19,908 nucleotides of DNA from Deltaproteobacteria bacterium RBG_13_61_14 (GTDB lineage: Bacteria > RBG-13-61-14). Within the stretch, counting starts at the first letter, position 1, and each line of letters opens with the position of its first letter. The notes under the pieces are model-generated. The model was given only the letters and a program-made list of their open reading frames with translations. It made no database searches and was not told where the DNA came from. The stretch is taken from positions 3,850-23,757 of the forward strand of contig MGQK01000077.1 of assembly GCA_001797815.1 (NCBI GenBank), read 5' to 3'. Of the stretch, positions 133-14,877 are shown piece after piece. Both the position numbers and the translations under genes were made by a program.

Positions 133-1386
133 ATGGCTCGGGAGGGCATGGAAGTCAGCATTGCCGCGGCGGAGGCGGTCGCGCTCTGCGATACCGACTG
201 CATCGCGGCGTATCCGATCACGCCCCAGACCCACATTGTCGAGCACCTGGCCGAGCTGGTGGCGGACGGGGAGCTGGAAGCGGAGTTCATCCCGGTGGAG
301 AGCGAGCACTCGACCAGGGCCATCACCACCGGCAGCCGGAGGCTGGCCGCGATAAACATGATCTCGCTCATCAGCGCCAGCCCCTGCGAGCTGGTGGAGG
401 TGAAGGTGCGCGCCCCCGCGGCCGCGGGGGCGCGCACCTTCACCTCCACCAGCTCGCAGGGGCTGGCGCTGATGAGCGAGATCATGTTTATCGCGGCCAG
501 CCTCCGGCTGCCGGTGGTGATGGCCCTGGTCAACCGCTCGCTCTCCGGCCCGCTCTCGATCTGGAACGACCACTCGGACGTGATGAGCGTGCGGGACTGC
601 GGCTGGATCCAGGTCTTTGTCGAAGACGGCCAGGAGACAGTGGACCACATGCCCTGGGCCTTCCGGGTGGCGGAAGACCCGGGGGTCTCACTCCCGGTGG
701 CGGTCAACCTGGACGGCTTTATCCTCTCCCACGTGATCGAGCCGATCGAGCCCTGGACCAAAGAGATGATGCAGAAATTCCTGCCGCCCTTCTCGCCGGT
801 CAACCGGCTCCATCCGGACCAGCCGGTGACCATGGGCGCGTTCGCCATGCCCGACCTGTTCACGGAAACCAAGATGGCCCAGAACCAGGCCCTGCTCAAG
901 TCCAAGCCCATCATCCTCAAGGCCTGGGAAGAGCTCTTGCAGGTGACCGGCCGGCGCTACCGTCCGGTCGAGACTTACCAGACCGAGGGGGCCAAGATCC
1001 TGCTGGTGACCATGGGCTGCCTGGGCCAGACCGCCCAGTTGGCGGTGGACGCCCTGCGCGAAGAGGGCGAGTCGGTGGGGCTGGTCAAGCTCCGGCTCTG
1101 GCGGCCGTTCCCCTTCGAGGAATTCCGTAAGGCGGTGGAAGAGGCCGAGCTGCTCCTGGTGATTGACCGGGCCATCTCTTTCGGCGGGCCGGGCGGGCCG
1201 GTGGCTTCGGAGTTGCGCAACGCCCTTTACCACCAGAAGAAACCGCCGCGGGTGGTCAACATGATCGCGGGCCTGGCCGGCCGGGACGTGCAGCCGAATG
1301 ATTTCGAGCAGATGGTGGAGCAGGCCAAGGCCAAGGTGGCGGAGGGCAAGGAAGACGACTATCTGATTTACGGGGTGCGGGGATGA
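133..1386 (+). CDS. porA: 2-oxoacid (pyruvate/2-ketoisovalerate-type):ferredoxin oxidoreductase alpha subunit, interrupted by an inverted duplication
   Basis: Alpha subunit of the CoA-acylating 2-oxoacid:ferredoxin oxidoreductase (417 residues). Visible family landmarks are GMEVSIAAAEAV, YPITPQTHIVEHL and VESEHS near the N-terminus, AAGARTFTSTSSQG and LPVVMALVNRSLSGP in domain I, and a C-terminal transketolase-C-like region (KILLVTMGCLGQTA, ISFGGPGGPV). Start ATG 133 follows a GGAGG nine bases upstream. The oddity lies between EHS (about residue 60) and AAGARTF (about residue 98): the family normally has about nine residues of the AMSAVIGAS type there, but this copy has about 36, encoded by the reverse complement of the sequence that follows, forming a perfect 220-bp palindrome at 312-531. 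The frame stays open, but the product is about 27 residues too long in a conserved core region, so either the protein is altered or the sequence is an artefact. It overlaps porB by ATGA. Confidence 0.9.
   Translation: MAREGMEVSIAAAEAVALCDTDCIAAYPITPQTHIVEHLAELVADGELEAEFIPVESEHSTRAITTGSRRLAAINMISLISASPCELVEVKVRAPAAAGARTFTSTSSQGLALMSEIMFIAASLRLPVVMALVNRSLSGPLSIWNDHSDVMSVRDCGWIQVFVEDGQETVDHMPWAFRVAEDPGVSLPVAVNLDGFILSHVIEPIEPWTKEMMQKFLPPFSPVNRLHPDQPVTMGAFAMPDLFTETKMAQNQALLKSKPIILKAWEELLQVTGRRYRPVETYQTEGAKILLVTMGCLGQTAQLAVDALREEGESVGLVKLRLWRPFPFEEFRKAVEEAELLLVIDRAISFGGPGGPVASELRNALYHQKKPPRVVNMIAGLAGRDVQPNDFEQMVEQAKAKVAEGKEDDYLIYGVRG
312..531. repeat. 220-bp perfect palindrome (two 110-bp arms, no spacer) inside porA
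   Basis: Every base from 312 to 421 pairs with its partner from 531 back to 422 (position i pairs with 843 minus i), with no mismatch and no spacer; the centre is GCGGCCGC. The right arm encodes the conserved porA sequence, so the left arm is the inverted copy. Pairing breaks at 308, 309 and 311 and then resumes for 11 bp (297-307 with 536-546), where both sides encode conserved residues (VESEHS and NRSLSG), so this outer inverted repeat is probably native. The structure looks like a template-switch product. Long spacer-free palindromes are usually unstable in bacteria, so a library or assembly artefact must be considered. Confidence 0.97.
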
Positions 1387-2318
1387 GAAACCTGGAACTG
1401 TATTCGCCGGTCTTGTTGCCGCGGGAGGAGTATTTTTGCTCCGGGCACCGGGCCTGCCAGGGCTGCGCCGAGGCGCTGGCGGTGCGGATCGTGATGAAGG
1501 CGCTGGGCAGGAACTCGGTGGTGGCCATGGCCACCGGGTGCATGGAGATCGTGAGCTCGCCCCTGCCCACCACGGCCTGGGCGGTGCCCTGGATCCACGT
1601 GGCCTTTGAGAACGCGGCCGCGGTGGCTTCGGGGATCGAGGCCGGGCTGAAGATTCTGATGAAGAAGGGCAAGCTGCCCCGGAAGAAGATCCATGTGGCC
1701 GGGATGGCCGGCGACGGCGGCACCTCGGACATCGGGTTGCAGGCGCTCTCGGGCGCGCTCGAGCGGGGGCACAACTTCACCTACTTCTGCTACGATAACG
1801 AGGCGTATATGAACACCGGGATCCAGCGCTCCAGCGCCACGCCCTTTGGCGCCGCCACCACCACCTCGCCGGCGGGCAAGCGGATTCCGGGCCAGACCAC
1901 CTGGAAAAAGAACATGCCGGCCATCGCCGCGGCGCACGACATACCGTATGTGGCGACGGCCTGCTCGAGTTACCCGGAGGACTTGTTCGAGAAGGCCAGC
2001 CGGGCGATCGAGACCCCGGGCCCGGCTTACGTGCACATCCTCTCGGTGTGCCCGACCGGGTGGCGGATCCCGCCCCGGACCGCGATCAAATACGGCCGGC
2101 TGGCGGTGGAGACCGGGGCGTTTCCGCTCTACGAGGTGGTGAACGGCGAGTATTTTCTGAGCAAGGATTTTCTGAAGCTCCTCCCGGTCAAGGAATATTT
2201 CAAGGGCCACGGCCGCTTCCGGCACCTGACCGAGGACATGGTCAACCAGATCCAGGAGCGGGTGAGTGCGGACTGGGAAAAGCTGAAAGCAAAATGCGTG
2301 AACGTGAAGAAGGGATGA
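1383..2318 (+). CDS. porB: 2-oxoacid:ferredoxin oxidoreductase beta subunit (ThDP-binding)
   Basis: Catalytic beta subunit, 311 residues, the usual family length. It binds thiamine diphosphate and one [4Fe-4S] cluster and decarboxylates the 2-oxoacid with CoA to acyl-CoA, passing electrons to the delta subunit. Visible: cluster cysteines C25 and C28 (RACQGC), C53 (TGCME) and C223 (CPTGW); the ThDP/Mg motif GDGGTSDIG at 110-118 continuing to NEAYMNTG at 139-146; and SATPFGAATTTSPAGK, typical of pyruvate/ketoisovalerate-type beta subunits. The start ATG overlaps the porA stop (ATGA) and the stop overlaps the nuoE start in the same way, so porA, porB and nuoE are tightly coupled. All expected residues are present, in contrast to the disturbed porA. 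Substrate (pyruvate or branched-chain 2-oxoacid) cannot be decided. Confidence 0.93.
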   Translation: MRNLELYSPVLLPREEYFCSGHRACQGCAEALAVRIVMKALGRNSVVAMATGCMEIVSSPLPTTAWAVPWIHVAFENAAAVASGIEAGLKILMKKGKLPRKKIHVAGMAGDGGTSDIGLQALSGALERGHNFTYFCYDNEAYMNTGIQRSSATPFGAATTTSPAGKRIPGQTTWKKNMPAIAAAHDIPYVATACSSYPEDLFEKASRAIETPGPAYVHILSVCPTGWRIPPRTAIKYGRLAVETGAFPLYEVVNGEYFLSKDFLKLLPVKEYFKGHGRFRHLTEDMVNQIQERVSADWEKLKAKCVNVKKG

Positions 2319-2812: not shown

Positions 2813-4693
2813 ATGCCTAGCGTACGGATTCAAACCGCAGAAGATTTAACCAGGCTTCGGGCTTCGCTCTTGAAGAAGCGCGACCCCAAGAAGACCCGGG
2901 TCACGGTCTGCGGCGGGACCGGGTGTTTGTCCAACGGCAGCGAGAAGCTGGCCCGGGCGTTAGCCCAGGCCGTGGCGCAGAACGGGCTGAAGGCGAAAGT
3001 GGAGCTGAAGCTCTCTGGCTGCCACGGGTTTTGCGAGCACGGGCCGCTGGTGACGATAGACCCGCAAGGTATCTTTTACGAGCGGGTCGGCCGCAAGCAA
3101 CCGGACAAGGACGCGGCCGAGATCGTGGAGACCACCCTGAGCAAAGGTGATCTGGTCGAGCGGTTTTGCTACACCGATCCCGGCACCAAGCAGAAAAAAG
3201 TCCACTACGAGGAAATCCCGTTTTACGCCAAGCAGCACCGGATCGTGCTCCGCCACAACGGGCGGATTGACCCGCTGGAGATCGGGGACTACATCGCCGA
3301 GGGCGGCTACTCGGCCCTGGCCAAGGCCCTGACCCTGGACCCGGAGGAGATCATCGCCTGGATTGAGAAGTCGGGGCTGCGGGGCCGGGGCGGGGGCGGG
3401 TTCCCGGCCAGCCGCAAGTGGCGGAGCTGCCGCAACGCCCCGGGCGAGGTGCACTACATCGTGTGCAACGGCGACGAGGGCGACCCCGGCGCTTTCATGG
3501 ACCGCTCGGTGATGGAAGGCGACCCGCACTCGGTGCTGGAGGGGATGATCATCGGCGCCTACGCCATCGGCCAAGGCAAGAGCCGGGCCGAGGGCTACAT
3601 TTACGTGCGGAACGAATACCCGCTGGCGGTCCGCAACCTGCGGCAGGCGATTGCCCAGGCGGAGAAATACGGGCTTTTGGGCGAGAACATCCTGGGCTCG
3701 GGCTTTGATTTCCGGGTCAAGATCAACCGGGGCGGCGGCGCTTTTGTCTGCGGCGAATCGAGCGCGCTGATGGCCAGCCTGGAGGGCCGGGCGGGCGAGC
3801 CGCGGGCCAAATACGTGCACACGGTGGAGCGGGGCCTATTAGACCAGCCCACCAACCTGAACAACGTGGAGACCTGGGCCAACGTGCCGGAGATCATCGC
3901 CCGCGGCTGGGAGTGGTTCGCCCGGATCGGGACCAAGCAGAGCACCGGCACCAAGGTCTTCAGCCTGGTGGGCAAGGTCAAGAACACCGGCTTGGTCGAG
4001 GTGCCGATGGGCATCTCGATCCGCGACCTGGTCTTCGAGGTGGGCGGCGGCATCCTCCACGACAAGAAGTTCAAGGCCATCCAGACCGGCGGGCCTTCGG
4101 GCGGCTGCATCCCCGCCAGCCTGGCCGACCTGCCCATTGACTTCGACACCCTGACCGAGCACGGCTCGATGATGGGCTCGGGCGGGCTGATCGTGATGGA
4201 CGAGAACGACTGCATGGTGGACGTGGCCCGCTATTTCGTCAAGTTTCTGGAAGAGGAAAGCTGCGGCAAGTGCGTGCCCTGCCGGGAGGGGCTGAGAAGG
4301 CTGAAGCAGATCCTGAGCGCGATTACCACCGGCTTCGGCAAGGAGAGCGACCTAAAGCTGATGGAGGAGTTGGGCGAGGCCATGACCTGGGGGAGCCTTT
4401 GCGCCTTAGGCGGGACCGCGGCCAACCCGGTGCTGAGCACGATCAAGTATTTCCGGGAGGAGTACGAGGCGCACATCCGGGACCAGCGCTGCCCCGCCGG
4501 CGTGTGCACGGCGCTGATCACCTATTCGATTGATAAGGAGAAGTGCACCGGCTGCCACGTCTGCGCCACCAATTGCCCGCAGAAGGCGGTCAGCGGAGAA
4601 AAGAAGAAGCACCACCTGATTGATCCCAAGCTCTGCATCAAGTGCGGGATCTGTTACGAGGTGTGCAAGTTCGACTCGGTGGTGCGGATGTGA
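2813..4693 (+). CDS. nuoF: NuoF/HydB-type NAD(P)H- and FMN-binding diaphorase subunit with extra Fe-S domains
   Basis: 626 residues with the domain order of HydB/HndC-type subunits: an N-terminal thioredoxin-like [2Fe-2S] domain (C33, C38, C70, C74); the NuoF core with the NADH/FMN signatures [11 protein letters not shown] and [14 protein letters not shown]; a soluble-ligand-binding beta-grasp region (about 380-430); the [4Fe-4S] domain [12 protein letters not shown] with a later C in SLCALGG; and a C-terminal bis-[4Fe-4S] ferredoxin domain ([12 protein letters not shown] and [11 protein letters not shown]). Plain NuoF lacks both end domains; they are typical of the flavin subunit of electron-bifurcating hydrogenases and formate dehydrogenases. 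ATG 2813 has GAGAGGG just upstream and is preferred to an in-frame TTG at 2798. It follows nuoE by 27 bases. Here the partner is Por, and no hydrogenase catalytic subunit is present. Confidence 0.93.
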
Positions 4694-4702
4694 AATTCAA
4701 TC

Positions 4703-4730
4703 GTAGGGGCATGGTCTGCCATGCCCCTAC
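4703..4730. repeat. REP-like palindromic hairpin, copy 1
   Basis: A perfect 12-bp stem, GTAGGGGCATGG at 4703-4714 and CCATGCCCCTAC at 4719-4730, with a TCTG loop, lies in the gap between the nuoF-like and hoxU-like genes. The same core TAGGGGCATGG...TGCCCCTA recurs at 9187-9212, and a related GTAGGGGCGC...GCGCCCCTAC element is at 5558-5615, so it is a dispersed family. There is no U-run, so it is not a classical terminator, though it could shape mRNA stability between two operon genes. Confidence 0.85.
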
Positions 4731-4778
4731 CTGCAAGAGGATGTGCGAGAATACGGCGATGGTAAGAGGATGGTTTTA

Positions 4779-8065: not shown

Positions 8066-9757
8066 TCACCATCTGCATTTATAAACCACCATCACATCCC
8101 CCCCGCAAATGATGTTGTCTTTCAACTCCACGGCAAAGACCGGGTAGAGCAGGTCCCGCTTCTCGACCAGGGTGGGGTACCAGTTGGGGAAGACGACCAG
8201 GTATTCGGGCTTTTCCCGGCTCAGGAATTCGAGCACGCGCTGGTCCCGGAGCGAGTTGATATGCAGGCCCTTGACGTAAGGCAGGATCTCCGGCGTGACC
8301 AGGCCGACCACGTCCAGCACCCGGCGCTTCGAGATATAGCCGATGGCCCCGATGTCGTTGGCGGCAATCACGTCCTCCGGCCGGGTGCCCCGCCGGATCC
8401 ACTCGCCGATCGCCACCTGCATCCCGTTGATGTTGTCCACCGACTGCGCGACCAGGGAGGGCCATTGCCGCACCGGCCGGCCGATGATTCGCTCCGCGGT
8501 CCGGTTCAAGAATCCCGGCCACTGCACCACCAGCGCCATGCCCCAGGCCACCATCACTGCCAGGGCCGCTCTCCGCACGCGGCCGACCGCAGCCGGCCGG
8601 CGGCGGGCCAGGAAATCGAGCGCCATTTCCAGCCCGAACAGGGAAAGCAGAATGAAGAAAGGGAGAAGGGGGATCAGGTAGCGCTGGAAATGGTATTTCA
8701 TGGGCGTAAGCAGAGTGGAGGCCGGGAGGTAGCCCACGGCCCAGAAGAAGACCAGGAGCCGGCCCGGGGGCAGAGCCTCGGTCCCTTTGCGCCAGGCCTG
8801 GACCACAATCCCGACCGCGCCGACGGGCAGAAAGAGGTGAAGGAACAGGTTATCGTAGGGCAGGAACTGGAGCACCAGGGAGAGGTATTCCCAGCTTCGG
8901 CCCCAGCGGAAATAGAGGGAGTTGGCGTGGAAGGTATTGGGGAGCAGGCTGCCGGTGGTCGCCAGAGAGAAAAGGGGGTAAGGCGCGATCAGCAGCAAAT
9001 AAAGAAGCGCGGCTTTCCAGGGAAAGCCTTTCCAGGCCAGGGTCCGCCGGCCGTCTTCCCGGCGCAGCCCCAGCGCCGCATCCAACAGGGCACAGAGGAA
9101 TAGGAGGTATCCCTCGGGCCGGGCATTGGTGGCCAGGCCGAAAAGGAGCGCGGTGAAGAGGGAAAACCGGCTTCGAGGCAAATCGGTAGGGGCATGGCAT
9201 GCCGTGCCCCTATCGATGCGGTCATCCGTGTAGCGGGTCACCGCCCAGAGCGAGAGCGCGGCGAAGAGGGTCGGCTCCATGCCCGAGGCCGCGGTCCAGA
9301 CGATGCGGCCGGTGAACAGGCACAAAAGCCCGAAGGCCAGCGCCCAGCCCCGGCCGGGCAGGAGCCTTTGGCCCAGGCCATAAGCCGCGACGGCCAGGGC
9401 CAGGTAAAAGAAGCTGCTCCAGAACAGGGCCACGTCGAGGAGGTTGTCGGTGAAGAGGCCCCCGAGCGCGAGGAGCAAGACCCAGAGCGGCGAAGTCGTG
9501 CCCGGCGTCGGCTCGCCCGGGTTAAAAGCGAAGCCCTGGCCGGCGAGCAGGTTCTCGGCAAAGCGCATGTGGATGTAGGTGTCGTCCAGCGCCGCGCTGA
9601 TGTGGCCCCGGGTCACCCGGTATTCCACCGCGTAAGTGATGATCAGCACGAAAATTCCGGCAGAGAACAGCAGCCCCCAGGCCCAAAAATCCCGGCCGGA
9701 CCGGACCGGGGTTCGGGGTTGCTCGCTCGGCCTGCTTTCTGTTAAACTGAGGGTCAT
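8066..9757 (-). CDS. GT-C-fold membrane glycosyltransferase (ArnT/PMT/AftB-like)
   Basis: About 563 residues and strongly hydrophobic, with roughly ten or more membrane segments in the first 400 residues and a soluble C-terminal domain. After the first membrane segment (about 26-44) comes LDDTYIHMRFAENLLAGQG (about 57-75), the acidic first-loop signature of GT-C polyprenyl-phosphate-dependent glycosyltransferases, then PGEPTPGTTSPLW. The C-terminal part holds VIAANDIGAIGYISKR and VLDVVGLVTPEI, common in uncharacterised members of this group. It likely moves a sugar from a lipid-linked donor outside the inner membrane; donor and acceptor are unknown. ATG 9757 is preferred because the hydrophobic N-terminus follows closely, but it lacks a clear ribosome site, and starts further upstream (to 9898) stay open. 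A REP-like repeat lies inside the coding sequence near residues 182-190. Confidence 0.8.
   Translation of the reverse strand: MTLSLTESRPSEQPRTPVRSGRDFWAWGLLFSAGIFVLIITYAVEYRVTRGHISAALDDTYIHMRFAENLLAGQGFAFNPGEPTPGTTSPLWVLLLALGGLFTDNLLDVALFWSSFFYLALAVAAYGLGQRLLPGRGWALAFGLLCLFTGRIVWTAASGMEPTLFAALSLWAVTRYTDDRIDRGTACHAPTDLPRSRFSLFTALLFGLATNARPEGYLLFLCALLDAALGLRREDGRRTLAWKGFPWKAALLYLLLIAPYPLFSLATTGSLLPNTFHANSLYFRWGRSWEYLSLVLQFLPYDNLFLHLFLPVGAVGIVVQAWRKGTEALPPGRLLVFFWAVGYLPASTLLTPMKYHFQRYLIPLLPFFILLSLFGLEMALDFLARRRPAAVGRVRRAALAVMVAWGMALVVQWPGFLNRTAERIIGRPVRQWPSLVAQSVDNINGMQVAIGEWIRRGTRPEDVIAANDIGAIGYISKRRVLDVVGLVTPEILPYVKGLHINSLRDQRVLEFLSREKPEYLVVFPNWYPTLVEKRDLLYPVFAVELKDNIICGGDVMVVYKCRW
9187..9212. 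repeat. REP-like palindrome, copy 3, inside the glycosyltransferase gene
   Basis: TAGGGGCATGGCATGCC followed by GTGCCCCTA is a 26-bp quasi-palindrome with one symmetric mismatch pair. It has the same length and ends as copy 1 at 4704-4729, differing at only a few central positions. In the minus-strand protein it encodes the stretch RGTACHAPTD between a predicted membrane segment and the next, so the repeat has been tolerated in a loop. Confidence 0.8.
9719..9748 (+). promoter_or_regulatory. Possible promoter for the CoA-transferase-family gene
   Basis: TTGCTC (9719-9724), an 18-base spacer and TAAACT (9743-9748) on the plus strand; the -10 hexamer is identical to those at 11262 and 17038. 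It overlaps the first codons of the divergent glycosyltransferase gene and would leave a leader of about 170 bases. Confidence 0.3.
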
Positions 9758-12561: not shown

Positions 12562-13236
12562 CTATGGTATCTCCTCAATAGATACTTTCTTCATCACCTG
12601 CGGCTCGAGGGGCCGATCGCCCGGGCCGGTCGGGGTGGCGCCGATCTTGTCCACCACCTCCTGGCCGGAGGTCACCTGGCCGAAGACCGTGTATTGGCCG
12701 TTCAGTCTGGGCTGGGCTTCCAGGCAGATGAAGAACTGCGAGCCGGCGCTGTTGGGGTCCTGGGCCCGGGCCATGGAGACCGTGCCCTTGAGGTGGGGCA
12801 GGTCGGAAAATTCGGCGTTGACGTTCCAGCCCGGCCCGCCGGAGCCGGTGCCTTGCGGGTCGCCGCCCTGGATCATGAAGCCCGCGATCACCCGGTGGAA
12901 GATCAGGCTGTTGTAAAACCCGCTTTGCGCGAGCTTGATGAAGTTGCGGCAGTGGTTGGGGGCCTGCTCCGGGAAAAACTTGAACTTGATCGCGCCCTGA
13001 TTGGTCTCGATTACGGCCTGCAGCTTCTCCATGTCCGCGACAGTCAGGTCCTCGGCTTTCTTCTCCAAGATGGCGCTGCCTTGGCTCGGGGCCGAGCTCG
13101 GAGCCGGCGCCGGTGTCGGTGCCGGTGTCGGCGCCTGACTCGACTTGCACCCGATCACGGCCAGCGCCGTGACGACCCACACCAGCAGGAAAACTTTAGC
13201 CCCAGCCGTCCGACTGGATTTCCCTTCTTGTTTCAT
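12562..13236 (-). CDS. Lipoprotein peptidyl-prolyl cis-trans isomerase (cyclophilin type)
   Basis: 224 residues. ATG 13236 follows a GGGAGG site and starts a lipoprotein signal (KVFLLVWVVTALAVIGC, lipobox AVIGC) followed by a Pro/Ala/Thr-rich linker made of PTPA-type repeats, then a cyclophilin domain from about residue 75. The domain has FHRVIAGFMIQGGDP, GPGWNVNAEF, DPNSAGSQFFICL and NGQYTVFGQV, the usual active-site and core segments. It isomerises peptidyl-prolyl bonds and is probably anchored in a membrane facing the periplasm. It is clearly paralogous to the cytoplasmic cyclophilin encoded just upstream at 13467-14015: both share ADMEKLxAVIET, PNSAGSQFFICLE and the ending RPLEPQVMKKVSIE. 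The two genes are separated by a MITE-like element. Confidence 0.92.
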   Translation of the reverse strand: MKQEGKSSRTAGAKVFLLVWVVTALAVIGCKSSQAPTPAPTPAPAPSSAPSQGSAILEKKAEDLTVADMEKLQAVIETNQGAIKFKFFPEQAPNHCRNFIKLAQSGFYNSLIFHRVIAGFMIQGGDPQGTGSGGPGWNVNAEFSDLPHLKGTVSMARAQDPNSAGSQFFICLEAQPRLNGQYTVFGQVTSGQEVVDKIGATPTGPGDRPLEPQVMKKVSIEEIP

Positions 13237-13263
13237 CTCGTGTTTCCTCCCTTGAATAAAGTT

Positions 13264-13458
13264 GGGGTCAGGTCCTGACAATTCACAATTTCGGGTTAAA
13301 AGCTGATCGAGCCTTGTTCCAGCAGGATCGAGCCCGCCGAACCTCTGCATCTCATTTCCAGACCCATTTCCAGACCCAATCGGGTCACCCATCTCCCGAG
13401 GAAGCGCCTCTGTTTTATGCTCATTTAGATAAATTGTGAATTGTCAGGACCTGACCCC
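13264..13458. mobile_element. MITE-like element with 28-bp perfect terminal inverted repeats
   Basis: Bases 13264-13291 (beginning GGGGTCAGGTCCTGAC, ending CACAATTT) are the exact reverse complement of 13431-13458. Each end contains the small palindromes GTCAGGTCCTGAC and AATTCACAATT. The 139-base interior codes for nothing and holds two tandem copies of CATTTCCAGACC. The element fills almost the whole gap between the two cyclophilin genes: eight bases from one stop and about 15 bases from the ribosome site of the other. No clear target duplication is seen. Similar GGGGTCAGGTC ends are known from small dispersed elements mobilised by Y1 transposases, but that link is recall, not shown here. 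Confidence 0.8.
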
Positions 13459-13466
13459 GATAGAAG

Positions 13467-14015
13467 CTAACCGATCTTTTCGATCGAGACTTTCTTCATC
13501 ACCTGCGGCTCAAGCGGCCGGTCCCCGGCGCCGGTCTTGGCGGCGCCGATCTTATCCACCGCCTCCTGGCCGGAGGTCACCTGGCCGAAGACGGTGTATT
13601 GGCCGTCCAGGAAAGCTTGTCTCTCCAGGCAAATGAAAAATTGCGAGCCGGCGCTGTTGGGGTCCTGGGCCCGGGCCATGGAGAGGGTGCCCTTGTTGTG
13701 GGGCAGTTTGGAAAACTCGGCGTTCACGTTCCAGCCGGGTCCGCCGGTGCCGTTGCCCTTGGGGTCGCCGCCCTGGATCATGAAGCCCTTGATCACGCGG
13801 TGGAAGACGAGGCTGTTGTAGAAGCCCCGGCTCGCGAGCAGGATAAAGTTTTTGCAGTGGTTGGGAGCCTGCGCCGGGAAGAACTTGAGCTTGATCGTGC
13901 CCGCGTTGGTCTCGATCACCGCCAAGAGCTTCTCCATGTCCGCCGCGGTCAGCTCGGCCACGCTCTTGCTTAAAACCGTCTGAGTCTTCTTCGTCTCTTC
14001 TTCAAACTTGCCCAT
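13467..14015 (-). CDS. Cytoplasmic peptidyl-prolyl cis-trans isomerase (cyclophilin type)
   Basis: 182 residues with no signal peptide. ATG 14015 follows an AAGGAG site; the frame is open further upstream but lacks similarity. A short charged N-terminal extension (MGKFEEETKKTQTVLSK, VAELTAADMEKL) precedes a complete cyclophilin domain from about residue 36: FHRVIKGFMIQGGDP, GPGWNVNAEF, DPNSAGSQFFICL, DGQYTVFGQV. Alignment by eye with the lipoprotein copy downstream shows most residues identical through the domain, so they arose by tandem duplication and one acquired (or one lost) an export signal and linker. It accelerates proline isomerisation during protein folding in the cytoplasm. Confidence 0.92.
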   Translation of the reverse strand: MGKFEEETKKTQTVLSKSVAELTAADMEKLLAVIETNAGTIKLKFFPAQAPNHCKNFILLASRGFYNSLVFHRVIKGFMIQGGDPKGNGTGGPGWNVNAEFSKLPHNKGTLSMARAQDPNSAGSQFFICLERQAFLDGQYTVFGQVTSGQEAVDKIGAAKTGAGDRPLEPQVMKKVSIEKIG

Positions 14016-14106
14016 TGTTACTCCTTGACCGCTCACTGACGCGATCTGGTCGCATCTTATCACAACCTTCCATAAATCACTAACTTGATGGAAGTTGCAG
14101 GAATTC

Positions 14107-14877
14107 CTACTGCTTTTCCGCGGCCCGCGCGAACCATTCGTGGTCAAAGCGGTTCATCATGCCCAGGTTGAGGAGCCATCCGGAGTAAAACTTCTGGCTG
14201 GCATGGGTAGAGAGCGCCAGGCCCTTGAGCTTCTTCACCGGCGCGATGTCCACCTTGACCGTGGCCGGCTGCGGCCGCAGCTTGGCCTCGTTCGGAAAAA
14301 CCCCGCTCCAAAACCGGGACAGGCTCACGTAATAGAGCCTTTGCGCCTGGCTCTGCGGGAAAGCGGCGAAGACCGCGGCGCTCAAGGCCCGGTGGTCCGA
14401 GTGGCCGGTCATCCCGTCCGGGCCGTAGGTGATCACCACCTCCGCGCCGGTGCGCTCGATAATCTCCCGCACCTCTTCCGCCAATGCCTCCGGCGGGAGC
14501 TTGGGCAGGCCCTGGTCCGGATGGTCAAGCTGGATCAGCTCGTCCACCCGGAGCACCGTCGCCGCGCTTTGGAGTTCCTCGATCCGAATTTTCGCCAGCT
14601 CCTCGCCGGTGATGTGCAGGTAGTCCCTGGCGCTGGAGAGGTCGCCGAGCGTGAAGCAGACGATGTGGGTGCGCACCCGCGGGTCTTGCTTGGCGATAAG
14701 CAGCGTGCCGCCGACAAAGATGGTCTCGTCATCCTGGTGCGGGAAAATGGTGACCACGTCAATCTTGCCGTCCGGGCCGGGCCGGATGCCGTCCAGGATG
14801 CTGCCCTCCCGCGGCCGGCCCAGGGCGGCCGAGCCGAGGAGCAGACTCAACCCAATGGTCAGAATCATTTTCCTCAT
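14107..14877 (-). CDS. Exported PIG-L/LmbE-family zinc-dependent deacetylase
   Basis: 256 residues. A Sec signal peptide (KMILTIGLSLLLGSAALG, cleavage near residue 20, no lipobox) precedes a PIG-L domain. Metal-site motifs are PHQDDE at 46-51 (usually PHPDDE; H47 and D50 are ligand positions) and GHSDH at 158-162 (usually HPDH; H162 is the ligand position). D49 is the probable general base. Family members remove acetyl groups from N-acetylglucosaminyl lipids, mycothiol or bacillithiol precursors; most are cytoplasmic, so an exported form probably acts on a cell-surface or periplasmic glycan. The Pro-to-Gln and Pro-to-Ser changes do not touch ligands, so activity is expected. AAGGA precedes ATG 14877 by about eight bases. 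It is divergent from the CsgG-family lipoprotein gene. Confidence 0.87.
   Translation of the reverse strand: MRKMILTIGLSLLLGSAALGRPREGSILDGIRPGPDGKIDVVTIFPHQDDETIFVGGTLLIAKQDPRVRTHIVCFTLGDLSSARDYLHITGEELAKIRIEELQSAATVLRVDELIQLDHPDQGLPKLPPEALAEEVREIIERTGAEVVITYGPDGMTGHSDHRALSAAVFAAFPQSQAQRLYYVSLSRFWSGVFPNEAKLRPQPATVKVDIAPVKKLKGLALSTHASQKFYSGWLLNLGMMNRFDHEWFARAAEKQ

Follow-up and report, generated by a model that had tools for sequence, protein, structure and literature searches.

How does a perfect palindrome of 220 bases come to lie inside the open reading frame of a conserved enzyme? The question is raised by a stretch of 19,908 nucleotides (the window, as we call the whole stretch of DNA analyzed) from the draft genome of Deltaproteobacteria bacterium RBG_13_61_14, a single ungapped piece that starts at base 3850 of the 40,088-base scaffold C77. 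At 133-1386, on the plus strand, there is an ORF in which an earlier note, made from the sequence alone, had recognized porA, the gene for the alpha subunit of pyruvate/2-oxoacid:ferredoxin oxidoreductase. Our analysis confirmed this identity by the Pfam domains POR_N, found in two stretches interrupted by an insert, and PFOR_II, and also by the structure PDB 9bt4_B, whose residues 15-75 and 77-385 align to the window residues 7-66 and 95-403, the alignment being split exactly at the insert. The gene of the beta subunit, porB (1383-2318, plus strand, with a TPP_enzyme_C domain), is intact.

A perfect palindrome without spacer had been described at 312-531, and when we compared positions 312-421 with 422-531 base by base, 110 of the 110 pairs turned out to be complementary, with zero mismatches and zero spacer. 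The centre is located at 421|422, and the surrounding 42 bases have a G+C of 81%. By repeat search, the whole structure is detected as arms 297-421/422-546 that are 98% complementary. Arms of 110 bp are far above chance, since the runner-up among the inverted repeats with spacers of up to 60 bp had arms of only 26 bp in the 2.07 Mb of this genome that were searched (44% of it), and the longest arms, with the same spacers, were 16 bp in 0.54 Mb from other genomes. No second palindrome of this kind was found in the 2.07 Mb of the genome nor in the 0.54 Mb of the others.

The ORF stays open throughout the palindrome and the frame is kept. We aligned its product with PorA homologues, a check that the earlier note had proposed (93 rows, corresponding to about 90 distinct genes with identities of up to 62%). 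In the interval between its residues 56 and 101 the window has 45 residues and the homologues 18, in 93 of the 93 rows, and the inserted segment is absent from all of them, including both order-mates, which are the nearest relatives compared. The order-mates read VESEHS-AMSVCAGSS/V-AAGARTFT and the window VESEHS-TRAITTGSRRLAAINMISLISASPCELVEVKVRAPA-AAGARTFT, i.e. 36 foreign residues are found where the homologues have 9, very close to the figures given before (about 35 for about nine). The insert starts two residues past the conserved SEH motif, whose glutamate we take to contact thiamine diphosphate in the pyruvate:ferredoxin oxidoreductases. The right arm (422-531, plus strand) encodes AGARTFTSTSSQGLALMSE...LPVVMALV and aligns without gaps to all the homologues. 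The right arm is thus native porA and the source of the left arm (312-421, minus strand), which is its inverted copy in the place of about 29 native bases, namely nine conserved codons, now missing, and some edge bases. The net change amounts to +81 (110 bases gained and about 29 lost). The protein of ORF 133-1386 should not be used as written, as the earlier note had warned; the rest of the window is independent of the palindromic segment.

The same alignment bears on the idea that the palindrome is ancient or under selection, kept in porA as a functional hairpin or as a coding palindrome. There is a precedent in the mitochondria of Nematomorpha, where perfect coding palindromes of similar size (up to 284 bp) are found within protein genes (PMC6649704), but in them conserved residues are encoded by both arms and the palindromes reappear in related species. 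In porA a single arm encodes such residues, the left one encodes foreign residues that neither the order-mates nor any other homologue possesses, and the divergence between the arms is zero. We consider this origin very improbable.

The palindrome is bracketed by an 11-bp inverted repeat, with its left half, GGAGAGCGAGC, at 297-307 (plus strand), in the codons of the conserved (V)ESE(H), and its right half, GCTCGCTCTCC, at 536-546 (minus strand), in those of the conserved RSLS. Since both halves lie in conserved codons and 8 of the 11 bases are present in one order-mate (G002), the repeat is native. Inverted 11-mers no more than 250 bp apart are not rare by themselves, with 26 of them in the remaining 19.4 kb of the window. 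The palindrome is in register with this one, and a run of 11 nt would fall in register next to two randomly chosen breakpoints with a probability of only about 1.1e-5, so the native inverted repeat most likely guided the switch of strand. Four native left-hand bases, ACTC (308-311, plus strand), come before the switch point, and their mirror at 532-535 is AACC, equivalent to GGTT, giving one match in four and three mismatches. As the product retains ACTC, and these three mismatches separate the repeat from the switch point, the 11-bp repeat is no clean primer for the product as written. The role proposed for it before, as the primer of a strand-switching polymerase, holds in that the repeat is native, sits in conserved codons and brackets the palindrome, and has to be qualified in that the junction is left untouched by it and the mismatches intervene.

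The neighborhood of the palindrome in the assembly is also informative. Position 1 of the window borders a scaffold gap of 96 Ns (C77:3754-3849), and on the right the window ends at another (C77:23758-23767). The palindromic structure starts 297 bp from the 96-N gap, beyond which there is a contig scrap of 277 bp and then a further gap (C77:3421-3476). Only 9.3% of the positions are as close as 311 bp to a gap, so the draft is locally fragmented where the palindrome is located. It has 337 N-runs in the 2.07 Mb read, with lengths from 6 to several hundred. The reading frame was kept over 46 of the 76 gaps where this could be tested, against an expectation of one third if the lengths were random and of nearly all if they were exact, and accordingly the N-runs behave as approximate size estimates like those derived from paired reads. 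A simple explanation of the gaps by GC dropout found no support (G+C of the gap flanks 0.62 versus 0.61). Three contigs, C17, C33 and C95 (L131, L147 and L214), open with runs of 149-364 Ns, which is unusual for scaffolds, so that some N-runs are perhaps masking by the collection instead.

A draft with many small gaps could also hide a collapse of mixed strains, in which two strains were merged by the assembler, one of them bearing the palindrome or some rearrangement. However, the contamination stated for the genome is 0.5% (with a completeness of 95%), and the arms are identical base by base whereas two strains usually differ. This is to our judgment even less probable than a selected feature.

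The explanation that we favor, and hold to be probable, is that the palindrome arose as an in vitro chimera or through a local mis-assembly, in a scaffolded draft with gaps, the join having been primed at the native inverted repeat. Four observations argue for it: the gap nearby, the uniqueness of the structure in 2.07 Mb, the zero divergence of the arms and the broken conserved site, as most members of a population are unlikely to carry a destroyed version of a universally conserved stretch beside SEH. Besides, the left junction has the published features of the chimeras generated during library preparation by sonication. According to the PDSM model, these form at natural, nearly perfect inverted repeats with internal mismatches (PMC10908179). 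Like them, the junction found here has a natural near-perfect inverted repeat (11 bp plus 1/4 further matches) and, following it, a sequence that is the inverted complement of the one between the arms (312-421 versus 422-531). Unlike them, it is present in the consensus and accompanied by a second junction without spacer, while each PDSM chimera has one junction, ending at a fragment end, and is seen in reads of low frequency; the contig, in fact, runs from the centre into the native sequence from 422 onward.

In the chimera account, a single strand whose end lay in the left flank (GGAGAGCGAGC-ACTCG) would have paired, through the native inverted repeat, with a strand of porA of the same polarity. 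The paired end would then have been extended backwards along 531->422, up to the end of the template, and the new end would have been fused in head-to-head orientation to the native sequence from 422, either as one molecule or during contig joining beside the gap. We infer here the place of the event, the direction of the synthesis and the closure of the centre with zero spacer. The published mechanism covers only the left junction and not the return at 422 without spacer, which counts against the chimera, as does the finding of no further foldback chimera in 2.07 Mb, by which the data set is not one full of such artefacts. De Bruijn assemblers, moreover, normally need reads over both the centre and the junction, a further point on the same side.

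The centre without spacer resembles an amplification artefact. Palindromes produced by whole-genome amplification, that reached 40-50% of the reads in amplified Arabidopsis data (Pacasus, PMC6218980), are like this one head-to-head copies without spacer, made when the polymerase continues along the product already made, but they are very frequent and here there is one short event in 2.07 Mb of assembly. Neither the library-preparation chimera nor the amplification palindrome alone yields the whole structure, so either one library-type chimera plus a second joining step is needed or one molecule with two switches. We discarded a foldback hairpin of a single strand as the origin of the centre, since hairpins require a loop and the spacer is zero.

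The main competitor, to which we give a minor but real share of credence, is a real and very recent template-switch mutation in the cell. In the four-point model of short-range template switching (L->1, 2->3 in reverse, 4->R; PMC7954356) the window corresponds to 1=311, 2=531, 3=422 and 4=422 relative to the homologues. The polymerase would have left the template at 311, reached the other strand at 531 via the inverted repeat, copied to 422 and returned at 422. The model accounts for the two switches as well as for the lost bases, and its order 1-4-3-2, which makes single inverted repeats (PMC7954356), would yield the whole structure in a single event, losing about 29 bp and gaining 110. The switch would have to be inter-strand, given the zero spacer and the copied segment lying ahead of the switch point. 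As in the four-point switches, a short piece of native sequence has given way to an inverted copy from nearby, and the register between repeat and switch (about 1.1e-5 by chance, as above) and the open reading frame are in favor as well. Homology at the switch is usual, yet the model does not require it. On the other hand, the three mismatches beside the priming repeat are retained here and the case is known from an assembly alone, unlike the published switches. With ACTC kept, a proofreading polymerase would have to extend beyond three mismatches, and the sampled population would need to have as its consensus a product that disrupts a stretch shared by all the homologues. The palindrome also adjoins an assembly gap, and the spacer inversions described in yeast genes are far shorter, with substitutions of 2-5 bp (PMC8604942). 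Small inverted triplications are similar in that they have segments of about 150 bp and short inverted repeats at the breakpoints; they are eliminated in E. coli plasmids (PMC13334657). They differ by their DUP/INV/DUP arrangement and spacers of about 30 bp, in place of the inverted copy plus deletion without spacer of the window.

Two properties of the genome make a real palindrome biologically conceivable. The first one is that the gene may be dispensable. There are at least four strong POR_N matches in further POR-alpha genes of the genome, plus several weaker ones, so that the loss of the porA of the window need not be lethal and could be compensated. The description of the locus as a central metabolic enzyme needs the caveat of these other copies. 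The second is the apparent absence of SbcCD. The earlier note had preferred the chimera on the grounds that nucleases of the SbcCD type cut palindromes of this size; in E. coli plasmids, inverted structures become more stable when sbcC or sbcD is lost (PMC13334657). We found no match to the SbcC_Walker_B domain in this genome (G000) or in its order-mates G001 and G002, while 12 of 14 genomes used as controls had one, and no SbcD above the cut-off in any of these three genomes, which are all those of the order that were examined. The SbcC profile gives in this genome short N-terminal matches alone, at C118 and C94; the C118 protein, with AAA_23/SMC_N domains, was discarded as SbcC. The only SbcD match, of 89 residues and below the cut-off in a C125 protein, was discarded too, being a short N-terminal match in a general metallophosphoesterase of 252 aa. 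G002 has a weak SbcD match (44 bits, below the cut-off). A lineage-wide loss of this palindrome nuclease across the three genomes is possible, and its absence, if anything, makes a real palindrome more tolerable. As the nuclease was found neither in the genome nor in its two order-mates, the argument from SbcCD cannot be used here. The choice posed by the earlier note, recent switch or chimera with preference for the second, is nevertheless upheld on other grounds, the chimera being better argued from the gap 297 bp away and the match to the library-preparation artefact (PMC10908179).

Other repeats are present in the window. An inverted pair of GGGGTCAGGTCCTGACAATTCACAATTT is located at 13264-13291 and 13431-13458. 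This motif has 38 copies in the genome at up to two mismatches, and some of them (C11, C27) adjoin genes of Y1 transposases, for which the genome has 19 matches (PF01797). It looks like a dispersed repeat family of the REP/RAYT type. Two tandem genes resembling peptidyl-prolyl isomerases (12562-13392 and 13467-14147, minus strand) have long stretches of DNA with 85-87% identity, and the dispersed inverted repeat is found between them and around their ends. Short palindromic elements of the form GTAGGGGC...GCCCCTAC are found at 4703-4731 and 9185-9212 and recur in many contigs of the genome.

The case matters mainly for quality control, as it illustrates that a plausible ORF of a draft genome can conceal a chimeric join; an automatic pipeline would release PorA with 36 spurious residues next to the conserved SEH motif. 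The biological scenario, a living population of a bacterial lineage devoid of SbcCD in which a fresh 220-bp palindrome arose in porA by an inter-strand switch and was caught before being lost, appears to us rather doubtful. Should it be true, it would offer a rare view of how a long perfect palindrome originates in bacteria, in a lineage without a detected palindrome nuclease.
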